A DNA stretch of 64,000 bases from assembly GCF_036227485.1 (NCBI RefSeq), contig NZ_CP109479.1, forward strand, positions 5,456,001 to 5,520,000, read 5' to 3'. Positions within the stretch are counted from its first letter, which is position 1. The number at the start of each line of letters is the position of its first letter. The notes under the pieces were generated by a model, which worked only from the letters and a program-made list of their open reading frames with translations, searched no databases and was not told the DNA's origin. The position numbers were made by a program, and so were the translations under genes. Shown here piece by piece: positions 1-18,917 of this stretch. The DNA comes from Streptomyces sp. NBC_01451 (lineage in GTDB: Bacteria; Actinomycetota; Actinomycetes; Streptomycetales; Streptomycetaceae).

Positions 1-15
1 AGTCAGAGCGATGCG

Positions 16-3000
16 GTGAAGGATGCCCAGGAGCCCGCCGAAGCCCTACCGGAGGAGTGGTCTCCGGAGTCGGGCGGCTACGCGCCGGGTGCGCAGGTCT
101 TGGTCCGTGACGACCTCTGGCTCGTGCGCAAGTGCACGCTCACGGAGCACGACGGGTGGATGGTCGAGGTCACCGGTATCTCCTCGTTCGTCCGTGGCAT
201 GGACGCCGCTTTCTACGACCGGCTGGATGCGGTTCAGGCGCTGGACCCGCGCGAGACCGAGCTGGTTCCGGACGACTCCCGGAACCACCGCCGGTCCAGA
301 CTCTTCCTTGAGGCGATCATGCGGAAGACGTTCTTGCCGCAGACCGAGCACGGACTGGCGCTGGCGGACAACTTCCTCATGGACCAGCAGGTTCACCAGC
401 TGCGGCCGGCGGAGCTGGCACTGTCGATGAAGAACCCGCAACCGCGGATCCTGATCGCGGACGTGGTGGGTCTCGGCAAGACCCTGGAGATCGGGGTGCT
501 GCTGGCGGAGCTGATCCGGCGCGGTCGCGGCGAGCGGATCCTGGTGGTGACGCCGCAGCATGTGCTGGAGCAGTTCCAGCGGGAGCTGTGGACCAGGTTC
601 GGGATTCCGCTGGTGCGCCTGGACTCGACGGGCATCCAACGGGTGCAGCAGGACATTCCCGCGGGCCGTAACCCGTTCGCGTACTTCAAGCGCGTGATCA
701 TCTCCGTGGACACGCTGAAGAGCGATGTGTACGCGCACCACTTGGAGCACACCGACTGGGACGCCGTCGTCATTGACGAGTCCCACAACCTCGTCAACCG
801 GGGTACGAAGAACAACGCGCTGGCCCGTCTGCTGGCGCGCAAGACCGACGCACTGGTCCTGGCCTCGGCCACCCCGCACAACGGCGACGCCGCCTCGTTC
901 GCCGAGCTGGTCAGGATGCTGGACGAGGCGGCGATCGCCAACCCGTCCCAGTACGAGGTGGAGGACCTCAAACACCTTTACATCCGGCGTACGAAGACAT
1001 CGGACGAGGTGCGGGAGTCGATCAAGGACGACGTCTGGGCTCGGCGCGGTCCGTCCAAGCCCATCCCCGTTGCGGCCACCGAGAAGGAACTCGCGGTCTT
1101 CAAGGAACTGGCTACGCGCTGGATTCCTGCCAGCACGTCGGAGCCGTCGGCCAGCAGGCATCAACTCGTTCCGTACCGGCTGCTGAAGTCGTTCCTGTCG
1201 TCGCACAAGGCCCTGCTGGCGACGATCAAGACCCGGATCGGAAACCTCGACAATCCGCCGCCTGACAAGCCCAAGAACGGCGCCAAGAAGTCCCGGCCCG
1301 AGGACCCGGCGGTACGCGAAGCGGCACGGAAGACCGAGCGGGCCGCGCTCGTCGACCTGCGGCACCTCGCCGAGCAGATCGAGGACCAGGACTCGGCGAA
1401 ACTGGCAGCGCTGCTCGACGAACTGCGCGACATGGAAGTCGGACCGGGCTCCGATACACGAGTGGTGGTGTTCTCCGAGAGCATCCCCACGTTGAAGTGG
1501 CTTGCCGAGACCGTGCCGACCGCGCTCGGCTTCAACCACACCACCAGCCCGGATGAGAAGAAACCTTGGCTGGGATTCGGCGGAGCGGTGCAGGTCATGC
1601 ACGGCGAGGCCAGCACCGATCAGGAACAGCAGGACATCGTCGAGAAGTTCGGGCTCCGCGACGATCCCGTACGCATCCTGTTCACGGGCGATGTCGCCTC
1701 CGAAGGCGTTAACCTGCACCAGCAGTGCCATCGCCTGGTCCACTACGACCTGCCGTGGTCCCTGATCCGCATCGAGCAGCGTAACGGTCGTATCGACCGT
1801 TACGGGCAGGAGCACCGACCCGAGTTCCGCGCGCTGATCCTCACGAGCGACATCCCGTGGCGCACGGACGAGACGACCGGGCAGCCGCGAACCCTGGACG
1901 ATCGCCTGGTGGGTGAGAAACTCCTCCTGCGTGAGGCGGAGGCCCACAAGATCGAAGGGTCGGCCGAAGCGGTCACCGGCCTGTACCGGGCCAAGGACGA
2001 AGAGAACCGCCTCACCCAGGACCTGATCGCGGGCCGCACAGTCGAGGAGTCCATCAAACAGTCCCAACAGGGCGGGGCTGCCTTCCTCACCGGGCTCCTC
2101 GGCCAGGTGGGCGCCGTCCACGAACACCCCGAAGTCGCCCGAGCGGTGGTGCCCAAGCTCTTCCGGTCCACGGCCGACTACTTCGAGGAGGCGCTGCGGC
2201 AGGTCTGCCACCCCAATCCGGAGGATATGTTGTCGCTACGGCGCGACGACGACGGCACCATCGCCTTCGAGCCTCCGCGGGACCTGCTGTACCGGCTCAA
2301 AGCACTCCCCAAGTCGTACCTGGACGAGCAACAGATTCTGCCGCGCAAGACCGAGCCGGGACGGGTGCGCATCACCTTCTCCAAGAAGCTCGCAGGCGCG
2401 CGCCTGAAGGCGGCACGGGAGACGACCGCCTCCCAGTGGCCGAACGTCTCGTACGTCACCGACGTTCACCCTGTCCTGGACTGGCTCACGGACAAGGTGC
2501 TCGTCGAGATCGGCCGGCACAAGGCCCCAGTGCTTGCCGCCACCGTGGACAGTCCGACCTTCCTTGTGCAGGGCATCTACTCCAACGCGCTCGGCAAGCC
2601 CACCATCGTCGAGTGGATGGGTGTCTCCAACCTGCACGACAACCCGGTCGTGGACACGCTGACCGCGGATGTGCTGGAGCGCTATGGCGTCGGTCCGAAC
2701 ATGCCCGGCCGCGCCGAGCCCCGCGACATGCCCGGACTCAGCGCGCTCGTGCCCGATGCGATCGAGGCTGCACATCGTGAACTCGTCGCTCTCGAAGCCG
2801 AGTACCGCAAGCAGATCGAGGAGACCCTCGATCCTTACCGCAAGCGGGTAGCCGATTGGAAGCAGGAAGCACTCTTTGCCAGTGCGCGCCCGAACGAAGC
2901 AGAACTCGACCGGACAGCCGGGCGGCGGCTGAAACTGGTCAAGTCCCTGCAGACAGCGGGCGAACCGATGTTGCGCCTGCTCGCCGTCCTCGAACCAATC

Positions 3001-3030
3001 ACCGCCGCTGAAGAAGGCACCGAACGATGA
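16..3030 (+). CDS. SNF2-family helicase, DrmD-like, first gene of DISARM-like operon
   Basis: A superfamily 2 ATPase of about 1004 residues. Visible motifs are Walker A GLGKT (about residue 151), the Walker B box DESH (about 252), motif III SATPHNGD (about 283), and the C-terminal helicase lobe ending in QRNGRIDRYGQ (about 588), the signature of SNF2/RapA-type translocases. The last ~350 residues have no motif I recognise. Size and position directly before an adenine methyltransferase match DrmD of class 1 DISARM, where a SNF2 protein accompanies DrmMI; the DISARM link is inferred from family and context. The GTG at 16 is assumed to be the start, but the frame is open to the window edge and only 15 bases precede it, so a start further left is possible. 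It overlaps the next gene by ATGA at 3027-3030, implying translational coupling. Confidence 0.82.
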   Translation: MKDAQEPAEALPEEWSPESGGYAPGAQVLVRDDLWLVRKCTLTEHDGWMVEVTGISSFVRGMDAAFYDRLDAVQALDPRETELVPDDSRNHRRSRLFLEAIMRKTFLPQTEHGLALADNFLMDQQVHQLRPAELALSMKNPQPRILIADVVGLGKTLEIGVLLAELIRRGRGERILVVTPQHVLEQFQRELWTRFGIPLVRLDSTGIQRVQQDIPAGRNPFAYFKRVIISVDTLKSDVYAHHLEHTDWDAVVIDESHNLVNRGTKNNALARLLARKTDALVLASATPHNGDAASFAELVRMLDEAAIANPSQYEVEDLKHLYIRRTKTSDEVRESIKDDVWARRGPSKPIPVAATEKELAVFKELATRWIPASTSEPSASRHQLVPYRLLKSFLSSHKALLATIKTRIGNLDNPPPDKPKNGAKKSRPEDPAVREAARKTERAALVDLRHLAEQIEDQDSAKLAALLDELRDMEVGPGSDTRVVVFSESIPTLKWLAETVPTALGFNHTTSPDEKKPWLGFGGAVQVMHGEASTDQEQQDIVEKFGLRDDPVRILFTGDVASEGVNLHQQCHRLVHYDLPWSLIRIEQRNGRIDRYGQEHRPEFRALILTSDIPWRTDETTGQPRTLDDRLVGEKLLLREAEAHKIEGSAEAVTGLYRAKDEENRLTQDLIAGRTVEESIKQSQQGGAAFLTGLLGQVGAVHEHPEVARAVVPKLFRSTADYFEEALRQVCHPNPEDMLSLRRDDDGTIAFEPPRDLLYRLKALPKSYLDEQQILPRKTEPGRVRITFSKKLAGARLKAARETTASQWPNVSYVTDVHPVLDWLTDKVLVEIGRHKAPVLAATVDSPTFLVQGIYSNALGKPTIVEWMGVSNLHDNPVVDTLTADVLERYGVGPNMPGRAEPRDMPGLSALVPDAIEAAHRELVALEAEYRKQIEETLDPYRKRVADWKQEALFASARPNEAELDRTAGRRLKLVKSLQTAGEPMLRLLAVLEPITAAEEGTER

Positions 3031-6000
3031 GTACTGACTTCGACTCCTTCACCAACCGCGGCGAGTACCTGTCCGCGCACTACTTCGCCGATCAACTCGG
3101 CGCCGACTTGAAGAAGGGCCTGTTCGCCACCTGGGCACTGCGCGAGGGTGACGAGAACGACCCGCGGAAGACGCCGCGTGAGTCGCTGCGCGCCCTGCGT
3201 ACGCCCTACCTCAGCGAAGAGCTGCGCGGCTACTTCGTCAAGACCACCCAGGCCGACGCCGGCGACGAAATTCGCCTCGCCACGTACAACAACCCCGAGT
3301 GGACCAAGCGGCTCGCCGAGTGGCACCAGATGGTCCTGCGCGCCCTGGGGTACGACACCACACCGGTCGAACTCACCGTGCACCGCGCAGGACGCGATCA
3401 CACCCTGCCCGTCGCTTACCACGGCCACGGCATCGTCGCTCTCGACTGCGGCTGGTCCCCCGACAATGACGCTGCCCTTGACACTGACGGCGCCGGACGC
3501 CTGCTCTGGCCTCTACGCGTCAGCGCCAGCGAGTCGTACGAGGCGGGCGCGGCTCTGGTCTCCTGGCTGTTCCAGAGCGAACTCGGCGAGGCAGGCGGCC
3601 CGCATCCACGATTCGTCCTGCTCATGTGCGGCGGCGTAATCCTGCTCGCCGACCGCCAGGCCTGGAGCGAGGGCCGCTACCTCGCGGCCAATCTCGACGC
3701 CGCTCTGGAGCGCAACGACCGCACCCAGCAGGGCGAACTCGCCACCATCGCTGCCCTGTTCAGCATGGAGACGCTCCGCCCCGGCGAGAACGACCAGAGC
3801 CGCGCGATCGACGGTCTACTCAAGTCTTCCAGTGACAGTGCGGCCGGTGTCTCCAGCGAACTCCGCTACGGCCTGCAGCGTTCCGTCGAGATCATCGCCA
3901 ACGAAGTCCTGGCTCGGATGGCTGAGCCGAAGAACAACGTCACACCGGCCGACATCGCGAGTACCAAGATCCCCTTTGCCCGGGAACTCACCCGAGAATC
4001 CCTGCGCTATCTCTACCGCATCTTGTTCCTCCTCTACGCGGAGGCCCGCCCCGAACTCGGTATCCTCCCCGCCGATGACGGGACGTACGAGGCCGGCTAC
4101 TCCATGGCCCGCCTGCGGGAACTGGTGGAGCGCGACGAGGAACTCGTCGAGGAGGAGGCCAAGAATGGCTTCCATCTTTTCCAGTCCCTCGACGTCCTGT
4201 TCAACAAGGTCAACTTCGGGCACCGCGCGTACGGCACCGAACCCGACGACGACCAGCCCGGCGACGATGAGGAGACCCGCAAGGCCAAGGCGGCCCGCCG
4301 CAGCGAAGACCGTGGCCTGCGCTTTGAGCCGCTGCGCAGCGAACTCTTCGAGCCCGCCGCTGTTCGCCTCATCGGGACCCGCGTCATCGACCCGCGCAGC
4401 GACGAGGACGATGACCCGCGCTGGCTCGACCTGCAGTTGCGTAACTCTGCTCTGCATGAGGTGCTGCGCCTGCTGACCATGAAGAAGGGCAAGCGCGGCG
4501 AACGCGGCGGCTTCATCTCTTATCGCAACCTTGGCATCAACCAACTCGGCGCCGTCTATGAGGGGTTGATGTCATATACCGGCATCATCGCAGAGGAACT
4601 ACTGTGCGAGGTGGCCAAGGGGGGCGACCCGGAGAAGGGTTCCTGGCTCGTCCCTGCGGACAAACAGAGCGACTACCCGGAGAAGGCCCTCGTCCACTAC
4701 AAGGATGAGGACGCTCGCAAGGGCCTGCGTGGCGTCAAGAAGTACGAGAAGGGCTCCTTCGTCTACCGGCTAGCCGGCCGCGACCGGGAGACCTCCGCCT
4801 CGTACTACACCCCCGAGTCACTGACCAAGGTTACGGTCGAACTCACCCTCAAGAACCGCCTCGACCAAGAGCGCGACGAGCACGGCAAAGTCATCAGGAC
4901 GCGGGCGTCGGAGCTGCTCAAGTACAAGATTTGCGAGCCCGCGCTCGGCTCTGGCGCGTTCTTGAACGAGGCAATCAACCAGGTCGCCGACGAATACCTG
5001 CGCCGCCGCCAGGACGAACTCGGGACTGCTATCCCCACCGCTGACGCGGTCACCGAGAAGCAGAAGGCCAAGGCGTACGTCGCGTTGCACAACGCATACG
5101 GCGTCGATCTCAACGCTACCGGCGTCGAACTGGCCGAAGTGTCGCTGTGGCTGAACACCATGCACCCCGGCATGCGCGCCCCCTGGTTCGGCCTGCACCT
5201 GCGCCGAGGTAACTCGCTCGTCGGCGGGCGGCGTGCGGTCTACGCGGGCGACGACGTCTCCGGTACAGAGAAGGCGTGGCTGAAGGCGAAGGGCGCTATG
5301 GCGCCTGCTCCGCTCCCGTTCCTCAAAGGCGGCGAGCCACAACCGTTGCCTCAGGACGCGGTGCACCAATTCCTGCTGCCGAGCCCGGGCTGGGCTGCGG
5401 TCACGGGCTCGAAAGAGGCCAAAGAGCTTGCCAAGGACGGCGTCGAGCAACTCGCTTCCTGGAGGAGGGGACTCCTGAAGCGTCCCAAGCGCAGTACCGC
5501 CCATCTCAACAAAGACGGCAGCCATACCCGGCTCCCGGGCGGGAGGCTGAAGCCGGAAGCGACCTCGCAGTTCACGCGGCTGAGGGATGCTGCCCGCAGA
5601 GTGGAATTCCTCTGGTCGGCCGTCATCAAGCGCATGGAGCTCTCCGAGCAGGCGATCGCACGGCGCATCGACGTCTGGCAAGCCGATCCGAATGACCCCG
5701 AGTACGCCTTCCTCCGACGCCCTGAGCAGGCCGTACCGAAGGAGAGGGTCCTTGAAGACCTCTTCAACGCCATCGACACCCCGTACTGGCGGCTGAAGAC
5801 GGTCATGGATGCGTGGTGTGCCCTGTGGTTCTGGCCCGCAGACAAGGCCGGACTGCTGGACGGTACGGACGGTGAATACACGCCACGGGAAGTGATCGAC
5901 GGCGCCGACGTCCTCAGTGAACTCGGGGGAGTACCGCTGGTCGGTGGAGAGGCTACGGACGAGGCGTACGTCGAACCGCGCGCGTCGCAGAAGGTCCCCG

Positions 6001-8561
6001 CGGCGACGGCTCAGCCGCGCTTCGTCGAAGCTACGGCGACGGCGTTGTTCTCGCTGGGCGCTGAGCAGACATCCTTCGACGACCTCGCCGAGGCCGAGGA
6101 AGCGGAGCAGGCTGCCGAGCCCAAGGAGAACCGACCGAAGTCCAGGAAGAAGACCGCACCGAAGCCCAAGGTCGTAGTGCGACGGCAGATGATCCCGCTC
6201 AAGGACCTGGGTGACTGGCTGGACTTCCTGGAATCCATGCTAGGAACCGCCGACCTCCCTGAGGGCACACTCTTGGACAGTTTTGACTCCTTGGATGCTC
6301 TCAAGGAGTTCGAGGAGACCCTCCCGGGCTTCATGGGCATGGACACTGCCAACCCCGAAGATCGCTACCCGTGGCTGCGGGTAGTCAAGGACATCGCGCG
6401 GGAACAAGGCTTTCTGCACTGGGAGTTGGAGTTCGGGCTCGTCTTCGCGCGGGGCGGAGGATTCGACCTTCAGGTGGGTAATCCGCCGTGGGTACGGCCG
6501 GAGTGGAAGGAGAACTCCGTCCTTGCGGAGTACGAGCCGTGGTTCATGCTCACGGAGAAGCCTCCGGCGGCGGAGAAGAACCGGCGACGCTCAGCCGAGC
6601 TGGCCAAGCCCGAGGTGCATTCCTACGTTCTCGGCGAGTTGACCGCCACGGCCACCACGTCCGACTATCTGGCATCACCACAGGTGTATCCGCTAATCGC
6701 GGGAAGCCAGCCCGATCTCTATCGCGCGTTCATGTGCCAGACCTGGGACCACACCGCTGCGGGCGGCACCGTCGGACTCGTCCATCCGGACACCCACTTC
6801 AGCGGTGACAAGGAAGCGGGCCTCCGGGAGGCGGCATACCGGCGGCTGCGGGTACACGGAGACTTCGTGAACTCGGGCAACCGTTTCTTCCCACCTCCGG
6901 TGGGCCGGTCCAGCCACTTCGGGGTGCACATCTACGGTGAGCGCGGTGAGATCGACTTCGACCACCTGTCCTGGCTGTTCTCCGTCGACGCACTGCGACT
7001 CTCGAGCACGCACGACGGTAGTGGCGACGCGCCTGGTGTGAAGTACGCCGGCGACTGGGACGAACGCCCACATCAGCAGCGCGTCGTTCGGGTGACGCCC
7101 CATACCCTTGCACGGTGGCTGAAGCTGTCCGGTGAGCAGGATGTGCCCGTCGCGCAGGCGCGGCTGCTCACACCCGTGAGTACGGCGGAGGACCCGGCCG
7201 TTGACGCCTTGGCGGCGTACCCGCTGCGGCTGGGGGCACTCGACCCGCGTATCACTGGTGGGTTCCACGAGACGGGTGCCAAGAAGTCCGTGTATGGCCC
7301 CGGCAAGAACAAGCCGCTCATCGACTACAACAAGAACAGGGAAGGGCGCGAGGACTACCATGCCGACTCCTGGGACGAGGTCATCCTCAAGGGTCCGCAG
7401 CTGGGCGTCGCCAATCCACTCTTCAAGCAGCCGAGCCAGGGTGGCGGCGAAGTTCGGGGGCTGAACCACCTAGAGATCCCGTCGGACGCGGTGCCGGAGT
7501 CGGAGTACCAGCAGGTCGCGGATGACGCGACGTATGTGGGCGAGCAGGCCAAGTGGCTTGATCACGAACTGCTCGCTCGAATGCGCTTGGATGCCGTGGT
7601 GCACTTCTTGGCGCGATCGGAGATCGCGTTCTCCTGTGGCCGCTCCCCGAGCGAGGTGTCGGACGTGGAAGTGGACCGCCGACTGGTCGCGAAGGCAACT
7701 AGGCCGTACACCGAGTTCTACCGGCTGGCATGGCGCGAGCGGATCGCGGCCGATACGGAACGTGGTTTGTACGTTGCGTTGATTCCGCCAGGAGCCACGC
7801 ACGTCCATTCAGTCCGTTCCGCTGCACTGGACGATGTTCGTAGCTCAACGCTGATGGCTGGCTACTGGGCCGCACTGCCCACGGACTACTTGCTCCAGAC
7901 AACGGGTGTGGGGCACCTCGACGTAGCGCAGGCCCGTCGTCTCCCGGCGCTCGTCGCCGCGCACCCTCTAGCCCCTGCGCTGCTCCTCCGCACGCTTCGA
8001 CTCAACTGCCTGACCACTGCTTATGCCAGCCTCTGGGAGGAGCTTTACGACTCCACCTGGAATACCGACGAGCCCTGGGCCCACAAATGGGCTGGCATGA
8101 AGACGGAGCTCCACGCCGTAACCCCTACTTGGCAGCGTGACACCCCCCTTCGCACTGAATACGCCCGTCGCGCCGCGCTGGTGGAGATCGACGCTCTGGT
8201 CGCTGTCTGGCTCGGCATTGACGCCGACACTTTGATCATCATGTATCGGGCCCGTTTCGACATCATGCAGGGCTTCGACCTGGTCACCTGGTTCGATGCC
8301 AACGAGCGCAAGATCGCTGGTGACCGCTACACCTACGGCCATGGCCAGGAGAAAGAGCACTTCACTCAGCTCCAGACGTACCTGGCCGACAAGGCCGATC
8401 CCAAGACCGCCCCCGTACCCGACGGCTACAGCGCCCCCTTCTACAAGGCGAACCGCGAGGCGGAGATGCGTGAAGCGCACGCCTACTTCCAGAAGCGGCT
8501 CGACGATGCGATCGCCAACGGCAAGTGGGACCCGATCAAGCAGGAGGTGCCGACGCCGTGA
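3027..8561 (+). CDS. Very large N6-adenine DNA methyltransferase, DrmMI-like
   Basis: A 1844-residue Eco57I/DrmMI-type class I DNA methyltransferase. The target-domain lead-in SASYYTPESLTK is at about residue 590, the SAM-binding motif I EPALGSGAFLN at about 636, a motif II-like region YGVDLNATGVELAE follows, and the catalytic motif IV NPPW is at about 1151, which assigns it to the N6-adenine (or N4-cytosine) methylases. About 500 residues separate motif I from NPPW, far more than in a compact methylase; this stretch includes an acidic/basic low-complexity linker near residue 1030. It probably methylates host DNA so that the partner helicases and nuclease spare self, as in DISARM or BREX (inference). 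ATG 3027 overlaps the preceding stop (ATGA); the stop at 8561 overlaps the next GTG (GTGA). Confidence 0.87.
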   Translation: MSTDFDSFTNRGEYLSAHYFADQLGADLKKGLFATWALREGDENDPRKTPRESLRALRTPYLSEELRGYFVKTTQADAGDEIRLATYNNPEWTKRLAEWHQMVLRALGYDTTPVELTVHRAGRDHTLPVAYHGHGIVALDCGWSPDNDAALDTDGAGRLLWPLRVSASESYEAGAALVSWLFQSELGEAGGPHPRFVLLMCGGVILLADRQAWSEGRYLAANLDAALERNDRTQQGELATIAALFSMETLRPGENDQSRAIDGLLKSSSDSAAGVSSELRYGLQRSVEIIANEVLARMAEPKNNVTPADIASTKIPFARELTRESLRYLYRILFLLYAEARPELGILPADDGTYEAGYSMARLRELVERDEELVEEEAKNGFHLFQSLDVLFNKVNFGHRAYGTEPDDDQPGDDEETRKAKAARRSEDRGLRFEPLRSELFEPAAVRLIGTRVIDPRSDEDDDPRWLDLQLRNSALHEVLRLLTMKKGKRGERGGFISYRNLGINQLGAVYEGLMSYTGIIAEELLCEVAKGGDPEKGSWLVPADKQSDYPEKALVHYKDEDARKGLRGVKKYEKGSFVYRLAGRDRETSASYYTPESLTKVTVELTLKNRLDQERDEHGKVIRTRASELLKYKICEPALGSGAFLNEAINQVADEYLRRRQDELGTAIPTADAVTEKQKAKAYVALHNAYGVDLNATGVELAEVSLWLNTMHPGMRAPWFGLHLRRGNSLVGGRRAVYAGDDVSGTEKAWLKAKGAMAPAPLPFLKGGEPQPLPQDAVHQFLLPSPGWAAVTGSKEAKELAKDGVEQLASWRRGLLKRPKRSTAHLNKDGSHTRLPGGRLKPEATSQFTRLRDAARRVEFLWSAVIKRMELSEQAIARRIDVWQADPNDPEYAFLRRPEQAVPKERVLEDLFNAIDTPYWRLKTVMDAWCALWFWPADKAGLLDGTDGEYTPREVIDGADVLSELGGVPLVGGEATDEAYVEPRASQKVPAATAQPRFVEATATALFSLGAEQTSFDDLAEAEEAEQAAEPKENRPKSRKKTAPKPKVVVRRQMIPLKDLGDWLDFLESMLGTADLPEGTLLDSFDSLDALKEFEETLPGFMGMDTANPEDRYPWLRVVKDIAREQGFLHWELEFGLVFARGGGFDLQVGNPPWVRPEWKENSVLAEYEPWFMLTEKPPAAEKNRRRSAELAKPEVHSYVLGELTATATTSDYLASPQVYPLIAGSQPDLYRAFMCQTWDHTAAGGTVGLVHPDTHFSGDKEAGLREAAYRRLRVHGDFVNSGNRFFPPPVGRSSHFGVHIYGERGEIDFDHLSWLFSVDALRLSSTHDGSGDAPGVKYAGDWDERPHQQRVVRVTPHTLARWLKLSGEQDVPVAQARLLTPVSTAEDPAVDALAAYPLRLGALDPRITGGFHETGAKKSVYGPGKNKPLIDYNKNREGREDYHADSWDEVILKGPQLGVANPLFKQPSQGGGEVRGLNHLEIPSDAVPESEYQQVADDATYVGEQAKWLDHELLARMRLDAVVHFLARSEIAFSCGRSPSEVSDVEVDRRLVAKATRPYTEFYRLAWRERIAADTERGLYVALIPPGATHVHSVRSAALDDVRSSTLMAGYWAALPTDYLLQTTGVGHLDVAQARRLPALVAAHPLAPALLLRTLRLNCLTTAYASLWEELYDSTWNTDEPWAHKWAGMKTELHAVTPTWQRDTPLRTEYARRAALVEIDALVAVWLGIDADTLIIMYRARFDIMQGFDLVTWFDANERKIAGDRYTYGHGQEKEHFTQLQTYLADKADPKTAPVPDGYSAPFYKANREAEMREAHAYFQKRLDDAIANGKWDPIKQEVPTP

Positions 8562-11500
8562 GGCCGACGCTTCAGGCGCGGGGGCTCAAGGAGAGCCTGC
8601 TGCAGTACCTGTCGACCACGTACGCCCTGACGGACGAGGGCGCGCGCGAGGCGCTGCACCGGTTCCTCGGGGACGAGACGTCGGGGATGTTCCGGGGGCC
8701 GTATCTGCGGATCCGGACCCCCTTCACCACTGACGGCGACGAGTGGCGCAAGCACCTGGAGTGGCAGCGCGAGGGGTTCACGCCGTACGCGCATCAGGCG
8801 GTCGCGTTTGCGCGGCTGACGTCCGCGAACGAGCACACGCCGCAGCCGACCCTCGTCACTACAGGTACGGGCTCCGGCAAGACGGAATCGTTCCTCTACC
8901 CGGTGCTGGATCACTGCCGTCGTGAGCGGGAAGCAGGAAAGACCGGCGTCAAAGCCGTGTTCCTGTACCCGATGAACGCGCTCGCGACCGACCAGGCGCA
9001 GCGCATCAACGAGCTGCTTACGCAGAACAGTGAGCTGGGCAAGCTCTGGGCTGGTTTGTACATCGGGGACCGGGCGGCGACGCGGTACGAGAAGGTGCGC
9101 ACGCGGCGCTCGGACATGCAACTGGCGCCGCCGGACATCCTGATCACCAACTACAAGATGCTGGACCTGCTGCTGCAGCGCGAGGACGACGCCCCGCTGT
9201 GGCAGGAGGCGGACATCCGATACGTCGTGGTGGACGAGTTCCACACGTACGACGGCGCGCAGGGCACCGACGTGGCGATGCTGCTGCGACGGCTGGCGTC
9301 CGCGATCGGGGCGTCCGAGAAGGGGCGCCCGCTGGGGACCATCTGCCCTGTGGCGACGTCGGCAACGCTCGCGTCGGGGACGGATGACGACGGCGTGGCG
9401 CGACTGCTGGAGGTGGCGACCGACGTCTTCGGTACGGAGTTCACGGCGGAGTCGATCGTCGGGGAGAACCGGCTGTCGGTGGAGGAGTTCATCCCACTCA
9501 CCGATGTGAAGATGCAGGGGCTGCCCACGCCGGATGAACTGCTCGCGCTGCCCGATCCCGCTACGGGCGAGGAGGCACTGCTCGACCTCATCGAGGCGGT
9601 GACCGGGGTTCGCGACCGGGATCCCTTCCTGCTCGGCGAGAACCTGAAACGTCACCTGTTCACCCGAGCGGTGATGCAGGCGCTGGACGGCGAGGTGAAG
9701 AGCGGCCCCGAGGTGCTGGATGTCATGTGGCGGGCGGGCGCGGCCGGTTGGGCGGAGGCGGTGGCCCGGCAGCCGGAGAAGGCGGCCGAGGCGCTGGCCC
9801 GGTTCGTGGCGCTCCTGTCGTACGCGCGCGACCCGAAGTCGTCGTCCGGGGAGCCGCGCCCGTTCGTCCATGTCGAGGTGCACCAGTGGGCCCGGTCGGT
9901 GTCCCGGCTGCTTCGCGGCGTGCTGCCGTGGCCGAAGGCGGAGTTCCGCTGGGACGTCGCCGGGATGGCGGACGCGAGTGCGACGGACAGCGGCCGTTCT
10001 GCGCCGGTGACCACGGCCACGTCTGGGCAGACCGCCAATCTGTTCCTGCCGGCCGTCTACTGCCGGGACTGCGGGCGGTCGGGCTGGGCGGTGTTCTCGC
10101 CGGAGAGCGACGACCACGACGTCCAGTTCGACACGTTCAAGATCCGGCGTGCCTCGCTCGGCCAGGACAAGGCCCGGGTACGGAACCTGGTCGCGGCGAC
10201 CGAGCGGGAAGCCAAGGAAGGTTCCGGCGCGGCCCCGATGTCGAGCGCCGGCCGGGGTGCGGGCGGCGCCTCGGCGGGACAGGGCGCCGGCGGCACGCTG
10301 ATGGTGATGGACGGCGCACGCAAGCGGCTGCGACTACCCGATCCCCTCAACGACTACGACAAGGACACCAAGGAGCCCCGGCTGACGGCCCGAGACTCGG
10401 CGTTCGTCCTGGTCCACTTCGGCGGCACGGTCGCGAACACCGCGGCCAAGGAGGACTGGTGCCCGGCGTGCGGCGAACGCAACGCGATCCGTTACCTGGG
10501 CACCGGGTCGGCGGCGATGGCCGCTGCGTCGATCACGCAGCTGTTCACGGGCGGGGAGCTCGTCAAGAAGCTGCACGAGGACAAGACGCTGATGTTCAAC
10601 GACTCGGTGCAGGACGCCGCGCACCGGGCCGGATTCGTCGCCAACCGCTCGTACACCTTCTCGCTGCGCGCCTTGCTGACAGGGCACCTGCGCCACGACG
10701 AGCCGACGGCCCTCAACGACCTCATCGCGAACGTGGTCGAGGCCACCACGGATGAGGAAACCCTCGCCGCGGTGGTGCCGCCGGATCTGCACGTCTACAA
10801 GGGAGTTGACCGGCTGCTGTCCGGACAGGGACGCGGCGGCAGCATGCCCACGTGGCGGCTCATCGGACAGCGCCTCGCCTTCGAGGCCCTGATGGAATTC
10901 GGGTTCCGCTCCCGCAACGGCCGCACCCTGGAGCTGACCCGCACCGCCGCCGCGCAGGTGCGCATCGACGATCCGGAAGCCGTGGTGGCGCTGGTCCGGC
11001 GGATCCACGAGGAGTGCGTACGCGACGGGGTGCCGCTGATCGCGCAGGACGACGCGCGGTATCTGGCCTTCGTACGAATCTTCCTGGAGCGGCTCCGCAC
11101 CCGGGGCGCGGTCGCCCACAAGTGGCTCGACAAGTACGTGGACGAGGCGGGCACCAGCCGGTACTTCATCTGGGGCAAGCGGGCACCGGGCATGCGGGCT
11201 TTCCCGGCGCGGGTCGCAGCCCCGGTGTTCTTGCTCAGCCAGCCCAAGAACGGCAGCGAGTTCGACTCCGCTACCGGTCGGCTCTCCTGGTACGAGCGCT
11301 GGGCCGGGCGCTGCCTGGAGCTGCCGCGCGAGATGGCGCCGGAGTTCTGGTCCCGGCTGCTGCCTGAACTGGCCGCGCTGGGGCTGCTGTCGGTGCGGAC
11401 CCCCCGCGACACCTCGCTCAACGTCTACGGGCTCAAGCCCGGCAACATCGAGGCGCAGCTGCTGGACGACGAGCAGGTGAGGCACGCGTACGTACGCTGC

Positions 11501-14500
11501 CCGGTCTGCTTCTGGGAGCAGACGGTCCACCCGTCCCTGCTGGACCAGTGGCACCAGCAGCCCTGCCCCTCCTACCGCTGCCGCAGAGGCCGTCTGGTGG
11601 CCGGCGACCGGCCTGAGGGGCTGGGGGTGCACCACCGCGATCGCGATTACACCCATGACTACTACCGGCGCCTGTACCGCGGCGCGGGCACCTATCAGGT
11701 GGTCACCGCCGAGCACACAGGCATGCTCACCCGCCCGCAGCGTGAAGAGGTGGAGAAGGCCTTCAAACGGCGCGAGGGCTTCAAGGACCCCAACGTGCTG
11801 TCCTGCACCCCGACGCTGGAGATGGGCATCGACATCGGCGACCTGTCGGCGGTGGTGCTGGCCGCGCTGCCGCGTCGGCCCGCCTCCTACGCCCAGCAGG
11901 TGGGGCGGGCCGGGCGCCGTACCGGCAATGCGTTCTTGCTGACGATCCCGGACCGCAGACGCCGTGACCTGTACTTCCTGGAGCGCCCCAAAGACCTGAT
12001 CGCCGGCACCATCGTGCCGCCGGGCTGCTACCTGTCGGCCATCGAGATCCTGCGCCGCCAGTACCTGGCCCACCTGCTGGACCTCACCGCCGCCGGACGG
12101 CTGGTGCGCGCGGACGGCATCGTGCTGCGCGCCCTGCCGCACAAGGCCCCCCGTCTGTTCGGGCCGTCGGGCTACCTGGCCGACCTCGTCGATATGGCCC
12201 TTGCTCAGGGCGAGGAACTCGCCGACGGGTTCCTGGAATTGTTCCCTACCGGGGTCAGCGACCAGGCCAAGGCCGATCTCCGGGCGTACGCCACACACGG
12301 GCTGCGCGCCGCTGTGGAGGAGGCCGAGCGGGAGTGGTTCCGAAGCCAGCAGGCGCTGCGGGCTCGGCTGAAGGAGATCGACGAAGCCCACGACGAATTG
12401 CACGACACTGATCCGGACCAGGCGCGGCAGAAGGCCGAGCTGGACGCCGAACGGCGCGGCGTCGGGCGGCATCTGATGAACCTGGGCGAGACCACGGCGC
12501 AGACCGCGCTGTGCGACCTGGGACTGCTGCCCAACTACGCGCTGATGGATTCCACAACTGTCCTGTCGGCGACCCTGTACGGGGAAGAAGGAGTGGACGC
12601 CAAGACAGGAAAGGTGAAGTACAGCTCCGACACCTACGCCTACGAGCGGCCCAGGCGTATCGCGCTGGAAGAGCTGGCCCCCGGCAACACCTTCTACGTC
12701 AACGGCTACAAGCACCAGATCAGTGGTCTGGAGATCGCCACTGGCGGCCGGCAGGAATGGCGCACCTGGCGGGTGTGCCCCGGCTGCGGCTACGTACGCA
12801 CCGAGGACGCGGCCGAGGACCGCTCGCCGTGCCCGCGCTGCAAGACCGCCCACATCGCGGACGACGGCTCGTGCCTGTTCCAGATCGTCGAGCCGGCCAC
12901 CGTCACCTCGCGCGACAAACGGGAAGATGCCCACATCCGCGACGACAAGGACGACCGCGACCGCCGCTCCTACAAGGTCGTGGACGCCGTGGACATCCCG
13001 GTCGAGGACATCGAACCCGGCTCGTGGCGGCATGCATCCCAGACGTTCGGCGTCGACTACTGCCGCAGCGCCATGATCCGGCGGATCAACGTCGGACCGG
13101 TCCGCTATGACGCCCCGACCCGCGACGACTTCGCCGGACAACGCGTACGGCTCAACCCGTTCCACGTGTGCACGGCGTGTGGGGCGGCCAGCGCGGACGG
13201 ACAGCCCGTCTTCGACCACGACACCGACGCCCTGGACTCCCTTGCCGCCCGCAGCGGGCGCCTCAAGCACCACCGCCCGTGGTGCCCGCTGCGCCGCGGA
13301 AAGAAGACCGACGCCCGCGAGGAACCGGTGCTGCTCGCCCACCGGTTGCAGACCGAGGCGCTGCGGGTGCTGATCCCGGCCGCCACCGCGGACGTCGACT
13401 CCAAGGTGCATTCCTTCAGGGCCGCGTTGCGGCTCGGCGTGGACCTGCACTTCGGCGGTGACCCGCAGCACCTGGCCACTACCGTGGCGTCGATGCCGGA
13501 CAACGAGAGCGGGGAGCGCCGCTGGTTCCTGGTGCTCTTCGACTCCTTGCCCGGCGGCACCGGCTACTTGGACCGGCTCACCGACCCCACCGCCTTCCGC
13601 GACACGCTCATCAAGGCGTACGAGATGCTGAAGGACTGCCCGTGCGCAGAGGAGCAGCGCAGGGCCTGCCACCGCTGCCTGCACCGCTATACGCCGGAGC
13701 CCCTCCAGGACATCGTCTCGCGCCAAGCCGCGCTGACCATGCTGGAGTCCCTGCTGTTCACGAACGACGGCGAGGACGGGTGGGAGACCACCGAGGTCGA
13801 ACACACCGGGCTGGTCGGCCTGGATGCCCAGGTGGAATCCGACCTGGAGGCTCGTTTCCTGGCCGCGCTGAGGGACTGGGTGAAGGTCACCGGCGATGCC
13901 TCCTTGGACGAGGACGGTCACGCCAGCGGGCATCTGCGCTTCACCGACGGCCCTGGAGTGATGCACTGGCGGCTGACCGCGCAGCAGCAACTCCGAGGCA
14001 CCGTCACCGATTTCACCTTCACCCGCATTGACGGCCCGGCCCAGAGCGTCAAGGTCTACCTCGAAGGCTTCCGCTTCCACGCCAGCCGTGAACACAACCA
14101 GATCGCCACCGACGCGGCGAAGCGCACCCTCCTGCGCGCCGAAGGGGAGACCGTTTTCCAGATCACCTGGGCGGACATCGATCTCTTCGAGAAGCGCCCC
14201 ACTCGTACGCAGCCCGTATGGCCGCCCTACCGGGGCACGGCTCAGGAAGGGGCCAAGAGTGCGTACGAGCAGTACGGCGGACAGCGCGCCCACTTCGCCA
14301 ACGCCGTCTTCGCCAACCCCATCGACACCTTGATCGCCTATCTGCGGGACCCGGATGCCGACCGTTGGGCCCGCCAGGCCCGCGCCCTGGTCACCGGGCT
14401 GACGGCCCAGCCGGGCACGGTCCCGGTCGCGGCGACCGGTCGCCGCAGCGAACTGGTTGCAGCCCTGCGCGGCGAGCTGGCCACTTTCTCCGCCGCCGAG

Positions 14501-15304
14501 CGCCACGACAAGCCGGTCGTGCCGGATGCCGCAGGTATCGGCCCCGTCCACGTCTTCCGCACGCAGGATGAGAGCGGGCTGCCGATCATCTTCGCCCTGG
14601 ATGCGGCCGATCCCGAGGCTCTGAAGTGGACCGCGCTCGCCGTGCTTGATGATTCCGCGGCTGTGTTGGACACGGACGAGCACAAGGAGCGCTGGCGGTC
14701 CTGGTTGTACTGGACCAACCTCACCCAGTTCCTGTCCCTGGCCGGCGGTGATGGTGTCCAGCTCGCCACCAGCAAGGCGGCCGACTTCGAGGTTGAGGTC
14801 CTCGCGGTCTGCGGCGGGCTCGGTGAACTCGACTCACTCATTGGCGCCCCCTCACCCGCCGTACCCAAGGCGAACGCGGTCGTGGTCAAGCCCGTCGACC
14901 CCGACCCCGACCAAGACTCGGCCGCCGAAGCCGCCGTTGCCCAGGTCCTCCGCGACGCCGTCTGGGACGAGGACATCCTGGAGATCCTGCGCGAAGACCC
15001 CGACGAGTGGCCCGACCTGCTCCGCCTCGCCGGGATTCTCGCCGACCGAGGCAAGAAGGCACCTGTCTTCGGCTACGAACTGGGCAACAGCAGCCGCTGG
15101 CCAGCTGACTTCGCCTGGCACACCAACGGCATCAAGATCGCCGTAGTCTCCGCCCACCAGGGCGAGGACGACGACGAGGCGCAGCGACGCGACGCCGCGT
15201 ACGCCGAGGACGGCTGGACAGCACGCACCGCCGCCGAATGGCTCGCCCGCCTCGACGAACTGCTCGACCAGCTCCCCGACACGGAAGAAGGCACTCCCCG
15301 ATGA
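8558..15304 (+). CDS. Giant DEAD/DEAH helicase with DUF1998-like region and possible nuclease fold (YprA/DruE/DrmA-B-like)
   Basis: A 2248-residue helicase. Walker A TGTGSGKTESF is near residue 102, DEFHTYDG near 225, TSAT near 266; the second lobe is far downstream with EMGIDIGD near 1087 and QQVGRAGRR near 1112. Five cysteine clusters resemble zinc ribbons (near 502, 634, 980, 1407, 1537). A DUF1998-type tail has LFDSLPGGTGYLDRL near 1657 and a Cys-rich CPCAEEQRRACHRC near 1693. This combination is typical of YprA/MrfA helicases, DruE of Druantia, and the DrmA plus DrmB pair of DISARM, here possibly in one chain. At 1825-1875, the pattern DFTFTRIDG, VYLEGFRFH, FQITWAD resembles the core of Vsr/DUF559-like PD-(D/E)XK nucleases (inference). 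Start GTG 8558 is chosen because it overlaps the upstream stop and has CAGGAGG at 8541-8547. Confidence 0.82.
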   Translation: MRPTLQARGLKESLLQYLSTTYALTDEGAREALHRFLGDETSGMFRGPYLRIRTPFTTDGDEWRKHLEWQREGFTPYAHQAVAFARLTSANEHTPQPTLVTTGTGSGKTESFLYPVLDHCRREREAGKTGVKAVFLYPMNALATDQAQRINELLTQNSELGKLWAGLYIGDRAATRYEKVRTRRSDMQLAPPDILITNYKMLDLLLQREDDAPLWQEADIRYVVVDEFHTYDGAQGTDVAMLLRRLASAIGASEKGRPLGTICPVATSATLASGTDDDGVARLLEVATDVFGTEFTAESIVGENRLSVEEFIPLTDVKMQGLPTPDELLALPDPATGEEALLDLIEAVTGVRDRDPFLLGENLKRHLFTRAVMQALDGEVKSGPEVLDVMWRAGAAGWAEAVARQPEKAAEALARFVALLSYARDPKSSSGEPRPFVHVEVHQWARSVSRLLRGVLPWPKAEFRWDVAGMADASATDSGRSAPVTTATSGQTANLFLPAVYCRDCGRSGWAVFSPESDDHDVQFDTFKIRRASLGQDKARVRNLVAATEREAKEGSGAAPMSSAGRGAGGASAGQGAGGTLMVMDGARKRLRLPDPLNDYDKDTKEPRLTARDSAFVLVHFGGTVANTAAKEDWCPACGERNAIRYLGTGSAAMAAASITQLFTGGELVKKLHEDKTLMFNDSVQDAAHRAGFVANRSYTFSLRALLTGHLRHDEPTALNDLIANVVEATTDEETLAAVVPPDLHVYKGVDRLLSGQGRGGSMPTWRLIGQRLAFEALMEFGFRSRNGRTLELTRTAAAQVRIDDPEAVVALVRRIHEECVRDGVPLIAQDDARYLAFVRIFLERLRTRGAVAHKWLDKYVDEAGTSRYFIWGKRAPGMRAFPARVAAPVFLLSQPKNGSEFDSATGRLSWYERWAGRCLELPREMAPEFWSRLLPELAALGLLSVRTPRDTSLNVYGLKPGNIEAQLLDDEQVRHAYVRCPVCFWEQTVHPSLLDQWHQQPCPSYRCRRGRLVAGDRPEGLGVHHRDRDYTHDYYRRLYRGAGTYQVVTAEHTGMLTRPQREEVEKAFKRREGFKDPNVLSCTPTLEMGIDIGDLSAVVLAALPRRPASYAQQVGRAGRRTGNAFLLTIPDRRRRDLYFLERPKDLIAGTIVPPGCYLSAIEILRRQYLAHLLDLTAAGRLVRADGIVLRALPHKAPRLFGPSGYLADLVDMALAQGEELADGFLELFPTGVSDQAKADLRAYATHGLRAAVEEAEREWFRSQQALRARLKEIDEAHDELHDTDPDQARQKAELDAERRGVGRHLMNLGETTAQTALCDLGLLPNYALMDSTTVLSATLYGEEGVDAKTGKVKYSSDTYAYERPRRIALEELAPGNTFYVNGYKHQISGLEIATGGRQEWRTWRVCPGCGYVRTEDAAEDRSPCPRCKTAHIADDGSCLFQIVEPATVTSRDKREDAHIRDDKDDRDRRSYKVVDAVDIPVEDIEPGSWRHASQTFGVDYCRSAMIRRINVGPVRYDAPTRDDFAGQRVRLNPFHVCTACGAASADGQPVFDHDTDALDSLAARSGRLKHHRPWCPLRRGKKTDAREEPVLLAHRLQTEALRVLIPAATADVDSKVHSFRAALRLGVDLHFGGDPQHLATTVASMPDNESGERRWFLVLFDSLPGGTGYLDRLTDPTAFRDTLIKAYEMLKDCPCAEEQRRACHRCLHRYTPEPLQDIVSRQAALTMLESLLFTNDGEDGWETTEVEHTGLVGLDAQVESDLEARFLAALRDWVKVTGDASLDEDGHASGHLRFTDGPGVMHWRLTAQQQLRGTVTDFTFTRIDGPAQSVKVYLEGFRFHASREHNQIATDAAKRTLLRAEGETVFQITWADIDLFEKRPTRTQPVWPPYRGTAQEGAKSAYEQYGGQRAHFANAVFANPIDTLIAYLRDPDADRWARQARALVTGLTAQPGTVPVAATGRRSELVAALRGELATFSAAERHDKPVVPDAAGIGPVHVFRTQDESGLPIIFALDAADPEALKWTALAVLDDSAAVLDTDEHKERWRSWLYWTNLTQFLSLAGGDGVQLATSKAADFEVEVLAVCGGLGELDSLIGAPSPAVPKANAVVVKPVDPDPDQDSAAEAAVAQVLRDAVWDEDILEILREDPDEWPDLLRLAGILADRGKKAPVFGYELGNSSRWPADFAWHTNGIKIAVVSAHQGEDDDEAQRRDAAYAEDGWTARTAAEWLARLDELLDQLPDTEEGTPR

Positions 15305-17607
15305 CGGCCCGGCTCAGCCTGTACCGCAAAGCCGAACAGGAGCTGTACAAGCTCGACCGCTCGGTCAAGGCCCAGTTCTACGACTTCTGCCACGACTTCC
15401 GGAACAAGCCCGACCTGCCGGGACTGAGGAAGAAGAAACTCAAGGGCGACTCCCGTATCCACTCGGCCCGTGTCTCCCAGGACTACCGGGCCCTGCTCAC
15501 GCAGACCGGAGTCGACGCGGACGGCACCGAGAGCTGGCTGGTCATCGCCGTCCGTCACCGCAAGGACGTCTACGAAGAGCTTCAGGTCGCCGTCAACCGC
15601 GTCACCGGCGAGATCGAGTTCGTCGACCTCGCCGTCGTCGGCGACAGCGCCCTCCGCCGGGCCGGCATCACCCTCACCCCGTCTGAGCCGGAGGCACAGG
15701 CCCCCAAGCCCGCTCCCAAACCGGAGCCCGAGCCGACGGTGCCACCGCTGTTGGCCGAGTACGACGCCGAGCAACTGCGCGAACTCGGCGTCGCCGAGCA
15801 GCTGATCGAGCTGGCACTCACGGTGACCATCAGCGCCGAACTCGACCAGCTCGTCGAGGGCGCCCCGCTGCTGTCGAAGGACATCCTGTACGGCCTCGCC
15901 GCCGGAATGGGCATCGACGACGTTCGCAAGGAGATCACCGGGCCGGTCGAACTCGACCAGCGTCCCGATCCCGACGACTTCGCCACCGCCCTCTCCCGCA
16001 CCAAGGTCACCACGGTCGACGACGCCGTTCGCGTCGTCATTGAAGAGGGCGACTTCCGTGCGTGGAAGGTCTTCCTCCACCCCACCCAGGAACGCATCGT
16101 CCACCGCCACTACACCGGCCCCGCCCGTGTATCCGGCGGCCCCGGCACCGGCAAGACCATCGTTGCCCTGCACCGCGTCAAGCACCTCGCCGAACAACTG
16201 CCCCCCGGCCACAACAAGCCGATCCTGCTGACCACGTTCACCAAGAACCTCACCACTGATCTGCGGCTGCGTCTCGCCTCCCTCATCGAACCCGACCTCC
16301 TTGCCCGCATCGACATCGCCCACATCGACCAGCTCGCCGCGCGTGTCCTAGGCGAGAACACCGCCCCTGGACGCGGCAAGCAGCGGGTCTACGATCATGT
16401 GGCCCTGAACGAGATGCGCCAGCTCCTGGCCGAACTCGACGACCGACGCTTCGAGCCGGAGTTCCTCCTGGAGGAGTGGGAACAGGTCATCCTCGGCCAG
16501 TCCGTCCCCACCCGCTCCGACTACTTCAAGGCACGCCGCGCCGGCCGAGGGCGCGCGCTGACCCGCCCCGAGCGCAACCACATCTGGAAGCTCATCGAGC
16601 AGTTCACCGCCCGCCTCGACAAGCTCGGCGTCGAAACCTGGGGCCAGGCCGCCGAGCGCGCCGCCCGCTTCGAGATCGAGCGCGCCGCGAAGATCAGAAA
16701 ACGCCGCGAGTACAAGGAAGAGATCGGCGGCAAGGACCTCATCCACCGCGACGCCAGCTCCGGCATGCGCTACATCGGCTACCGCTACCGGCACATCGTG
16801 GTTGACGAGGCACAGGACCTGCGCCCCGCGCATTGGAAGATGCTGCGGGCCATGGCCGACCCCGAACAGCCCAACGACATGTTCGTCGCGGGTGACACCC
16901 ATCAGCGCATCTACGATCACCAGGTCGCTCTCGGGGCCCTCGGCATCAACATCCGCGGCCGAGCCTCACGGCTGACCCTCAGTTACCGCACCACGAAGGA
17001 GATCCTCGCCGAGGCCCTCCGCGTCGTCGAGCCCAAGAGGAAGAACGAGAAGGTCACGTACGACGACCTCGACGACGGCACCGACACGCTCGCCGGTTAT
17101 CGTTCCGTTCTCCACGGCCCCAAGCCGGCCTTCAGCCGGTACAACACCTGGGACGACGAACTCGCCGGACTCGCCACCACCCTGAGCACCTGGCGCGAAG
17201 ATCTGTCCACCGACGACAAGGGCGCCCCCCTCGACCCCAGCGGCCGGATCGCCGTGTGTGTCGCCGACCGCGACATGGTCAGCCAGACCATGTACTACCT
17301 GGCCACCAAGGCGGGCATCACCTGTGCCGAACTCACCAAGGACGGTCCCAAGGGCGACGGCGAAGTCCACGTCGGCACCATGCACCGCTTCAAGGGACTC
17401 GAATACCAGCGCCTTGCCATCGTCGGCGCGAGCGACGGCATCATCCCGCGCACCAGCGTCGTCGAGCGCTACCGCGCCGAAGACCCGCCCCGCTACGAAC
17501 GCGAGCAGCGCAAGGCTCGCTCCTTGCTATTCGTCGCCACGACCCGGGCACGCGATGCCCTGAACATCAGCTGGCACGGCAAGCCCAGCCCGTACCTGCC
17601 GATCTGA
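15301..17607 (+). CDS. UvrD/PcrA-type helicase with RelE/ParE-like N-terminal domain
   Basis: A 768-residue superfamily 1 helicase, last gene of the four-gene operon. Residues 1-110 look like a RelE/ParE toxin fold (SLYRKAEQELYKLDRSVKAQ, then a basic strand, then LVIAVRHRKDVYEELQ). A Pro/Glu linker follows. The helicase has Walker A GGPGTGKT near 280, DEAQD near 501, GDTHQRIYD near 530, SYRTTKEI near 560, TMHRFKGLEYQ near 693 and FVATTRARDAL near 742, all expected for UvrD-family enzymes. Start ATG 15301 overlaps the previous stop (ATGA), which is preferable to upstream in-frame codons. RelE-like domains fused to UvrD helicases occur in actinobacteria; whether this domain is catalytic or only structural cannot be told. 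It occupies the place where class 1 DISARM usually has the PLD protein DrmC. Confidence 0.85.
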   Translation: MTARLSLYRKAEQELYKLDRSVKAQFYDFCHDFRNKPDLPGLRKKKLKGDSRIHSARVSQDYRALLTQTGVDADGTESWLVIAVRHRKDVYEELQVAVNRVTGEIEFVDLAVVGDSALRRAGITLTPSEPEAQAPKPAPKPEPEPTVPPLLAEYDAEQLRELGVAEQLIELALTVTISAELDQLVEGAPLLSKDILYGLAAGMGIDDVRKEITGPVELDQRPDPDDFATALSRTKVTTVDDAVRVVIEEGDFRAWKVFLHPTQERIVHRHYTGPARVSGGPGTGKTIVALHRVKHLAEQLPPGHNKPILLTTFTKNLTTDLRLRLASLIEPDLLARIDIAHIDQLAARVLGENTAPGRGKQRVYDHVALNEMRQLLAELDDRRFEPEFLLEEWEQVILGQSVPTRSDYFKARRAGRGRALTRPERNHIWKLIEQFTARLDKLGVETWGQAAERAARFEIERAAKIRKRREYKEEIGGKDLIHRDASSGMRYIGYRYRHIVVDEAQDLRPAHWKMLRAMADPEQPNDMFVAGDTHQRIYDHQVALGALGINIRGRASRLTLSYRTTKEILAEALRVVEPKRKNEKVTYDDLDDGTDTLAGYRSVLHGPKPAFSRYNTWDDELAGLATTLSTWREDLSTDDKGAPLDPSGRIAVCVADRDMVSQTMYYLATKAGITCAELTKDGPKGDGEVHVGTMHRFKGLEYQRLAIVGASDGIIPRTSVVERYRAEDPPRYEREQRKARSLLFVATTRARDALNISWHGKPSPYLPI

Positions 17608-18699: not shown

Positions 18700-18917
18700 C
18701 CTTGCGCTCCCTTCCTCTGAGCCGATCATGCACAGACAAACGTGATGATCTCATTCGGCCGGTGGGAAGAGACGGTCACGTTATGGGGACGAGTACTGGA
18801 CTGCACCAGTTGAGTGAAGGCTCCAAGCGGAGCTGACCCAGGGCGACTTCGCCCTGACCGGGCCGGAGGCATGAGCATGAGAACGACCCGGCCGGTGCCG
18901 ACGGACCGCAGACGCCA

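Follow-up and report, generated by a model that had tools for sequence, protein, structure and literature searches.

An ARMADA Type II operon of Streptomyces sp. NBC_01451 is preceded by a Ser/Thr kinase gene with a conserved C-terminal motif

We analysed a window of 64,000 nucleotides (positions 5456001-5520000 of the 10.27 Mb single-contig genome of Streptomyces sp. NBC_01451), which opens within an operon of four same-strand open reading frames (ORFs) for an SNF2 helicase, a methyltransferase, a DEAD-box/DUF1998 helicase and a UvrD helicase. Judged by gene content, gene order and predicted domain fusions, these four genes are ARMADA Type II (ArmA-B-C-D). In this actinomycete lineage the system probably works as a unit of five genes, with a dedicated Ser/Thr kinase at its head. 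Altogether the evidence points to a four-gene core that is an already known system, in a kinase-linked version that is undescribed.

Bell et al. (2025 preprint, PMC12458937) introduced the name ARMADA Type II and demonstrated the anti-phage activity of the system in E. coli. This source gives E. coli NCTC 12900 and ATCC 8739 as strains with the system (ATCC 8739 was tested) and reports that all four arm genes are required for defence in NCTC 12900. It also describes a C-terminal Vsr-type nuclease in ArmC and two genes in common with DISARM class I, one DrmD-like and one DrmMI-like. In the ATCC 8739 locus, the gene order is identical to that of the window operon. Searching this locus by tblastn with the window proteins gave 440 bits for ArmA, 365 and 258 bits for ArmB, 635 bits for ArmC and 310 bits for ArmD, while the global identity was 29-33% per protein. 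All eight residues mutated in PMC12458937 (numbered on the ATCC 8739 proteins), which are required for, or contribute to, defence in E. coli, are identical in the window proteins. Thus the window shares with ARMADA Type II the four genes, their order, the YprA-DUF1998-Vsr fusion, a UvrD protein (whose RelE part is weakly supported here) and the tested residues; it differs in that its lineage adds, directly upstream, a Ser/Thr kinase that ends in a conserved motif. The A-B-C-D order recurs in Streptomyces, Tsukamurella, E. coli and further relatives in the same class, a linkage far beyond chance. In the named loci taken from GTDB, armA is followed by armB and often by armC, armD lying beyond the stretch covered. 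The neighbourhood is conserved from Streptomyces to E. coli; the first-pass annotation of this DNA had proposed to check this across actinobacteria.

The 2023 PADLOC profiles split ARMADA into four labels, namely DrmD, type IIG, DruE and GajB. In the case of ArmA, DrmD (265.7 bits) was followed by BrxHI/HII (157.5 bits) on a protein with an SNF2-rel_dom domain; it is 32.9% identical to E. coli ArmA, and its K155 and D254 align with K136 and D236. ArmB matched REase_MTase_IIG (855 bits), DrmMI (179 bits) and Eco57I (40.2 bits), with the glycine of the S-adenosylmethionine motif at 641 and NPPW at 1152. ArmC combines a DEAD domain with an MZB (MrfA zinc-binding) domain, the MZB/DUF1998 part covering 1632-1719 (P0003 numbering), and DruE is its best PADLOC profile (296 bits). 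The residues E1775, D1829, H1852 and D1863 of a predicted active Vsr-type nuclease are present at its C-terminus; Foldseek with a model of this region gave no match at E<=0.001. ArmD has a UvrD domain and the PADLOC label GajB. Its N-terminus reached ParE_like with 19.7 bits, below the cut-off (6 of 16 members at E<=0.1), and 2khe at E 0.29. A low-confidence model (predicted local distance difference test, pLDDT, 58.6) places a helix-helix-four-strand order at 30-107, and its structure matches were helicases only, Rep/UvrD first, with no RelE fold among them. Weak sequence matches and the names given by a source thus weakly suggest a RelE domain. The domains first read from the letters alone stand in the case of SNF2, the Eco57I-type methylase, DEAD plus MZB and UvrD, whereas RelE is weakly supported.

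The window begins about 160 bp beyond the end of the kinase gene. The gene product P0005 matches Pfam Pkinase with 113.5 bits over a kinase domain at about 24-273, which is followed by a proline-rich linker and the C-terminal VADELRAAYAVDTAL. Among 138 loci with a readable region upstream of armA, the kinase was present in 79 and absent in 59; in these 59, no same-strand kinase-like motif was found in up to 2.9 kb upstream. The loci come from several sets that overlap, some named loci being the same contigs as members of other sets. The genus set was drawn from 199 genomes and consists of 30 of the longest ArmD matches together with the locus itself, 31 in total; shorter or broken matches such as G159, G116 and G052 lie outside it, and G141 has its ArmA only on another contig. 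The kinase lies upstream and co-directional in all 26 of these loci with ArmA and a readable upstream region, the other five being set aside for a contig end (G017) or for having no adjacent ArmA (G110, G142, G144, G155). In the class set, ArmA was matched in 42 of 394 genomes, and 40 further regions divided into 22 with the kinase, 17 without it and one (L104) ending at a contig end.

Concerning the named GTDB loci, the kinase was found in 34 of the best 80 of 511 confirmed relatives. Within these 80, loci with the kinase belong to Streptomycetaceae, Micromonospora, Saccharothrix, Frankia, Nocardiopsis, Streptosporangiaceae, Glycomyces and unassigned actinomycetes. Loci of Mycobacteriales, Micrococcales, Actinomyces, Propionibacteriales and Salinispora lack it, as do those of Pseudonocardia, Saccharomonospora, Sphaerisporangium cinnabarinum and the non-actinobacteria; a few contigs of this set are too short for a call. 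Because Micromonosporaceae, Pseudonocardiaceae and Streptosporangiaceae each contain loci of both kinds, the presence of the kinase does not simply follow host family. By PLSDB annotation, a kinase also occupies the same position on two Streptomyces plasmids; a further plasmid, CP146838 (L006), has no ArmA and stands outside the counts. Three consecutive kinase genes precede ArmA in G130 (L065:5425-11269), of which the nearest alone was counted as the ARMADA kinase. A different, homologous protein lies immediately upstream of ArmA in 9 of the 59 kinase-less loci (L007:1708-24380, on a Tsukamurella plasmid, and L121, L123, L124, L119, L205, L210, L226, L249). In L007 this protein is annotated as DUF1998 and preceded by a 'helicase-related protein', an arrangement that, going by annotation, would resemble the DrmA-DrmB pair of DISARM attached to a complete ARMADA operon.

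Trees of ArmA and ArmC were calculated with FastTree, which warned of long branches and letter composition. The ArmA tree was restricted to rows of at least 800 amino acids and has 146 rows, of which 8 are of unknown kinase state. Across the 138 scored rows (79 with and 59 without the kinase), a single change of label suffices. The branch on which it falls has a support of 95 and sets 81 rows to one side, including all scored kinase rows; a neighbouring branch that serves equally has a support of 47. For this scoring, a named locus counted as kinase-less if its upstream region exceeded 1400 bp and gave no match above 60 bits on the same strand, and labels were set by hand for L060 and L101 (present) and for L104 and L139 (unknown). 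Clustering ArmA at 97% identity gave 141 clusters, 75 with the kinase, 58 without, 8 unknown and none mixed. The ArmC tree, too, required a single change (39 and 17 rows, branch support 100). This tree also served to compare the nearest helicases; it covers ArmC proteins of ARMADA Type II and, as sole outgroup, the Druantia III helicase from the ATCC 8739 locus.

The kinases themselves mostly form one clade. In a quick tree with 29 other kinases from the genome of the window, 77 of 81 ARMADA kinases fell on one side (Shimodaira-Hasegawa-like approximate likelihood ratio test, SH-aLRT, 99). The 81 include near-copies, the 82 frames being 79 distinct ones by their last 200 residues; L101 and L186, where the kinase is present by tblastn and the frame is not cleanly readable, are outside the 81. 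The HRD motif is kept in 81 of 82 frames and DFG in 77 of 82, the sole frame without either being the misread L186, so that most ARMADA kinases should be active. Tree distances of kinase and ArmA correlated in a Mantel test with r 0.878 (73 pairs, four divergent kinases excluded), and 0 of 999 permutations reached this value. When the search starts from the kinase instead, ARMADA loci account for 23 of the 27 best matches (E<=6.8e-66) in the 199 genomes of the genus. Seven neighbourhoods were inspected here (G091, G177, G093, G117, G141, G035, G151); of the 42 matches listed, the 13 outside this survey are all weaker ones. G035 and G151, which rank below the best 27, have neighbourhoods without ARMADA genes.

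The most distinctive feature of the kinase is its C-terminus. The layout consists of the kinase domain, a variable proline-rich linker and a conserved end, and R-x-x-Y-A occurs in the last 60 residues of 76 of 81 ARMADA kinases and of none of the 29 paralogues. In 63 of the 81, the arginine is exactly 10 residues from the C-terminus. Relative to this arginine, A stands at position -4 in 69 of 76 kinases and L or I at position -1 in 75 of 76; position +9, with which most of the proteins end, holds L or F in 71 of 75, giving the consensus A-x-x-[LI]-R-x-x-Y-A-x-x-x-x-[LF]-COOH. In a scan of 4.15 Mb (288 sequences with many ARMADA loci, some overlapping), the motif closes 112 of 34,852 ORFs, of which 107 are kinase frames and 5 are edge-cut pieces of the same kinase. 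Outside the nearest group, the kinases are mostly 33-50% identical to that of the window, yet the tail is kept. Because the motif stands near the C-terminus, behind a loose linker, and persists while most of these identities fall so far, the tail looks like a putative docking peptide.

From these observations a mechanism can be proposed. By analogy with its family, ArmB would mark host DNA by adenine methylation, and ArmA and ArmC, as two DNA translocases, would engage phage DNA that is unmarked or structurally abnormal. Cutting of the engaged DNA would then fall to the C-terminal Vsr-like nuclease of ArmC, and ArmD (RelE-UvrD) might process DNA or RNA downstream. The kinase would be tethered to one of the Arm proteins via its flexible linker and its short, helix-like C-terminal motif. 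There, it would phosphorylate parts of ARMADA, or a phage or host trigger, by which the machine would be either switched on or held off. We lean, with some reserve, towards this reading of a five-component, phosphorylation-gated machine, in which the kinase, for which we propose the name ArmK, docks by its tail and licenses or restrains the helicase-nuclease upon infection. If so, the different kinases found in the same slot of a few loci would mean that kinase activity itself is what this slot demands.

Kinases have been linked to methylation-based defence before. In BREX type 2/Pgl, a Ser/Thr kinase, PglW, is likewise coupled to a methyltransferase-based system; PglW is, however, a large multidomain protein of 1400-1600 residues (PMC12839542), whereas the protein described here is a stand-alone kinase of 402 residues with a tail. 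The MADS system is similar in that mad6 is among the PADLOC matches of the window kinase, and differs in its partner genes. There, mad6 is the kinase of a methylase-linked defence system.

Several observations weigh against a dedicated, docking kinase. The E. coli ARMADA Type II defends without a linked kinase (PMC12458937), and thus the kinase is not needed for core activity. The stop codon of the kinase gene and the first possible start of armA are 95 bp apart, so there is no translational coupling, unlike at the 4-bp overlaps downstream. The tail motif is missing in 5 of 81 kinases, namely L108 (Y-D instead of Y-A), L196, L200, L211 and L207. Except for L108, these group with the paralogues outside the main kinase clade, L207 being very long; the other three, all from Streptomyces, represent another kinase clade at this position and share a C-terminal ending of their own. 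A well-conserved docking segment confined to the kinase clade was not found in ArmA-D, where only poorly conserved candidates were seen: ArmB 949-1055 (mean conservation 0.25-0.36), ArmC 2094-2112 (0.47) and ArmD 486-510 (0.53-0.64, from only 7 ArmD of the kinase clade). Descent of the hosts may contribute to the agreement between the kinase and ArmA trees. Finally, G117 has an intact, tailed kinase with no ARMADA genes within about 17 kb.

Two other readings of the kinase were weighed. It could control only expression or growth state, as a timing signal, and leave the ARMADA machine itself untouched. The gap in place of an overlap would suit such a role, as the kinase may form a separate transcription unit; a scan for a sigma-70-type promoter between kinase and armA found none, which is uninformative for high-GC DNA. 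We consider this reading unlikely, as the highest 19-residue hydropathy past the kinase domain is 1.48, indicating no obvious membrane helix, a domain scan of P0005 found no DNA-binding domain, and the C-terminal motif suggests docking to a protein. Alternatively, the operon could be plain ARMADA Type II beside a separate, PD-T4-6-like one-gene system or a hitch-hiker in the same island. For this speak the best PADLOC profiles of the kinase (PD-T4-6 with 179.6 bits, then mad6 with 156.9 bits), the kinase-independent defence in E. coli and the intact kinase of G117. However, PD-T4-6 profiles match 97 of 100 P. aeruginosa strains, with false positives suspected (PMC11719660), and the label was set aside as unspecific. 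Furthermore, a single change across 138 loci, a constant slot and a tail motif absent from the paralogues would hardly be expected of an independent neighbour. Of the four best matches outside ARMADA, three are broken or truncated (G091 split in two, G177 with an in-frame stop, G093 truncated), as expected for leftovers. A separate kinase is therefore improbable in our view, and the five-gene reading is preferred.

Regarding the operon itself, the first-pass annotation had proposed a DISARM-like variant without DrmC. It was right in seeing an operon of anti-phage type with kinship to DISARM and Druantia, in which a YprA-type helicase is fused and a UvrD protein, perhaps with a RelE part, is present. 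Its proposed profile search was run and returned DrmD, DrmMI and DruE. As in DISARM class 1, the window operon has a DrmD-like gene (ArmA) and a DrmMI-like gene (ArmB), the pair that ARMADA and DISARM class I have in common (PMC12458937). However, the NCBIfam cut-offs were missed by far (DISARM_DrmD 282 against 610 bits, DrmA 19 against 999 bits), the operon has no separate DrmA and DrmB genes, and the domain scan found no phospholipase D (PLD) domain, the mark of DrmC, in the four Arm proteins. Membership in DISARM was therefore rejected. The helicase and its DUF1998 part stand in one gene of DruE/ArmC type, from the Druantia/ARMADA branch, and both the gene order and the UvrD gene agree with ARMADA Type II, so that a DISARM variant is very hard to credit. 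All four genes fall into this one named system of exactly matching architecture, an outcome that the first-pass annotation itself had listed as refuting its proposal. No fusion of drmA with drmB need be supposed either, because in the YprA lineage of ARMADA and Druantia the helicase and OB-CON-DUF1998 parts are normally one gene (PMC12458937). Likewise, the role of the DrmC nuclease had first been assigned to the UvrD helicase, but the Vsr-like domain of ArmC is the likelier candidate for it.

In the case of Druantia, the likeness is that DruE is the nearest PADLOC profile of ArmC. DruE of Druantia III is described as a helicase-nuclease acting on, or loading at, 3' single-stranded tails (PMC13192584). 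Yet window ArmC scored 635 bits with the ArmC of ATCC 8739 and only 123 bits with the Druantia III helicase encoded at the same locus. Its partner genes are different as well: they are ArmA, ArmB and ArmD, and no Dru match (such as DruH) was found in the four downstream neighbours scanned with PADLOC. That ArmB is a type IIG restriction-modification enzyme amid unrelated helicases, as its best profile would have it, was rejected as scarcely tenable, since the linkage is conserved from E. coli to Streptomyces and all four genes are required for defence in E. coli (PMC12458937).

The features of the locus are collected in Table 1. The co-directional operon with 4-bp overlaps at all three junctions (ATGA 3027-3030, GTGA 8558-8561, ATGA 15301-15304) was borne out as first described, with the starts of armA, armC and armD corrected. 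Thus, armA extends to the left beyond the window, its first possible start being a GTG at L003:1938 (window -62) preceded by an AGGAAG-like sequence, and window position 16 is an internal GTG. The listed ORF starts 8525 (armC) and 15238 (armD) are too early, as GTG 8558 and ATG 15301 yield the overlaps. In the case of armD, 15301 is taken as the start because M22 of the long reading is invariant in 16 of 16 aligned ArmD.

Table 1. Positions of the four arm genes and of the upstream kinase gene, in window coordinates unless stated otherwise.
Feature	Position	Strand	Description
armA	1..3030	+	BrxHII/RapA-like SNF2 helicase (DrmD-like); frame open from window base 1
armB	3027..8561	+	PglX/type IIG-like adenine methyltransferase, 1844 amino acids
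armC	8558..15304	+	YprA/DruE-like DEAD helicase with fused MZB/DUF1998 part and predicted C-terminal Vsr-like nuclease
armD	15301..17607	+	UvrD/GajB-like helicase, 768 amino acids; N-terminal RelE/ParE-like domain weakly supported
Ser/Thr kinase gene (outside the window, left)	-1366 to -158 (L003:634-1842; G000:C1:5454634-5455842)	+	P0005, 402 amino acids

To the right of ARMADA there is probably a defence island. A protein encoded at 18971-19900 (minus strand) strongly matches the candidate defence family PDC-S18 (427 bits) and also DUF5655; beside it lie a Mrr_cat-like protein (17638-18729, below the cut-off) and a GHKL ATPase (20205-22169). Further on, a tyrosine-integrase-like protein has a LacI-type helix-turn-helix match within its frame (24735-26315, minus strand), and no tRNA genes were found in the 64-kb window. 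The frame at 40371-48575 (plus strand) encodes 2734 amino acids with a ricin-type lectin, a pretoxin HINT and Ntox27, and looks like a polymorphic toxin. Other Streptomyces lineages have extra genes between armB and armC, with gaps of 1.9-12.8 kb in the 14 loci examined. One such gap (L035:9562-13049) holds a complete Menshen system (NsnA 408, NsnB 386, NsnC 323 bits), and others hold a GmrSD_N protein (L039) or a caspase-AAA protein with an MkoC/MkoA-like helicase part (L033). On viral contigs, 29 ArmA-like loci were seen, mostly at 24-35% best segment identity, with one at 60% and a weak E-value (8e-12).

The word 'kinase' is absent from the main texts of PMC12458937 and PMC13192584. Literature searches over titles and the starts of abstracts, with supplements and most subscription journals outside their reach, returned no paper describing a kinase in ARMADA; PMC12904381 contains both words, ARMADA and kinase. 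Thus, the kinase in ARMADA is likely new.

In conclusion, the locus, at first taken for a new DISARM-like system, belongs to one that already has a name. The testable part is the kinase, which is tied to one large branch of ARMADA by descent, position and tail motif. A dedicated kinase with a likely docking peptide would offer a direct handle on how machines made of helicase, nuclease and methylase spare their host and become triggered, in Streptomyces hosts that are easy to work with.

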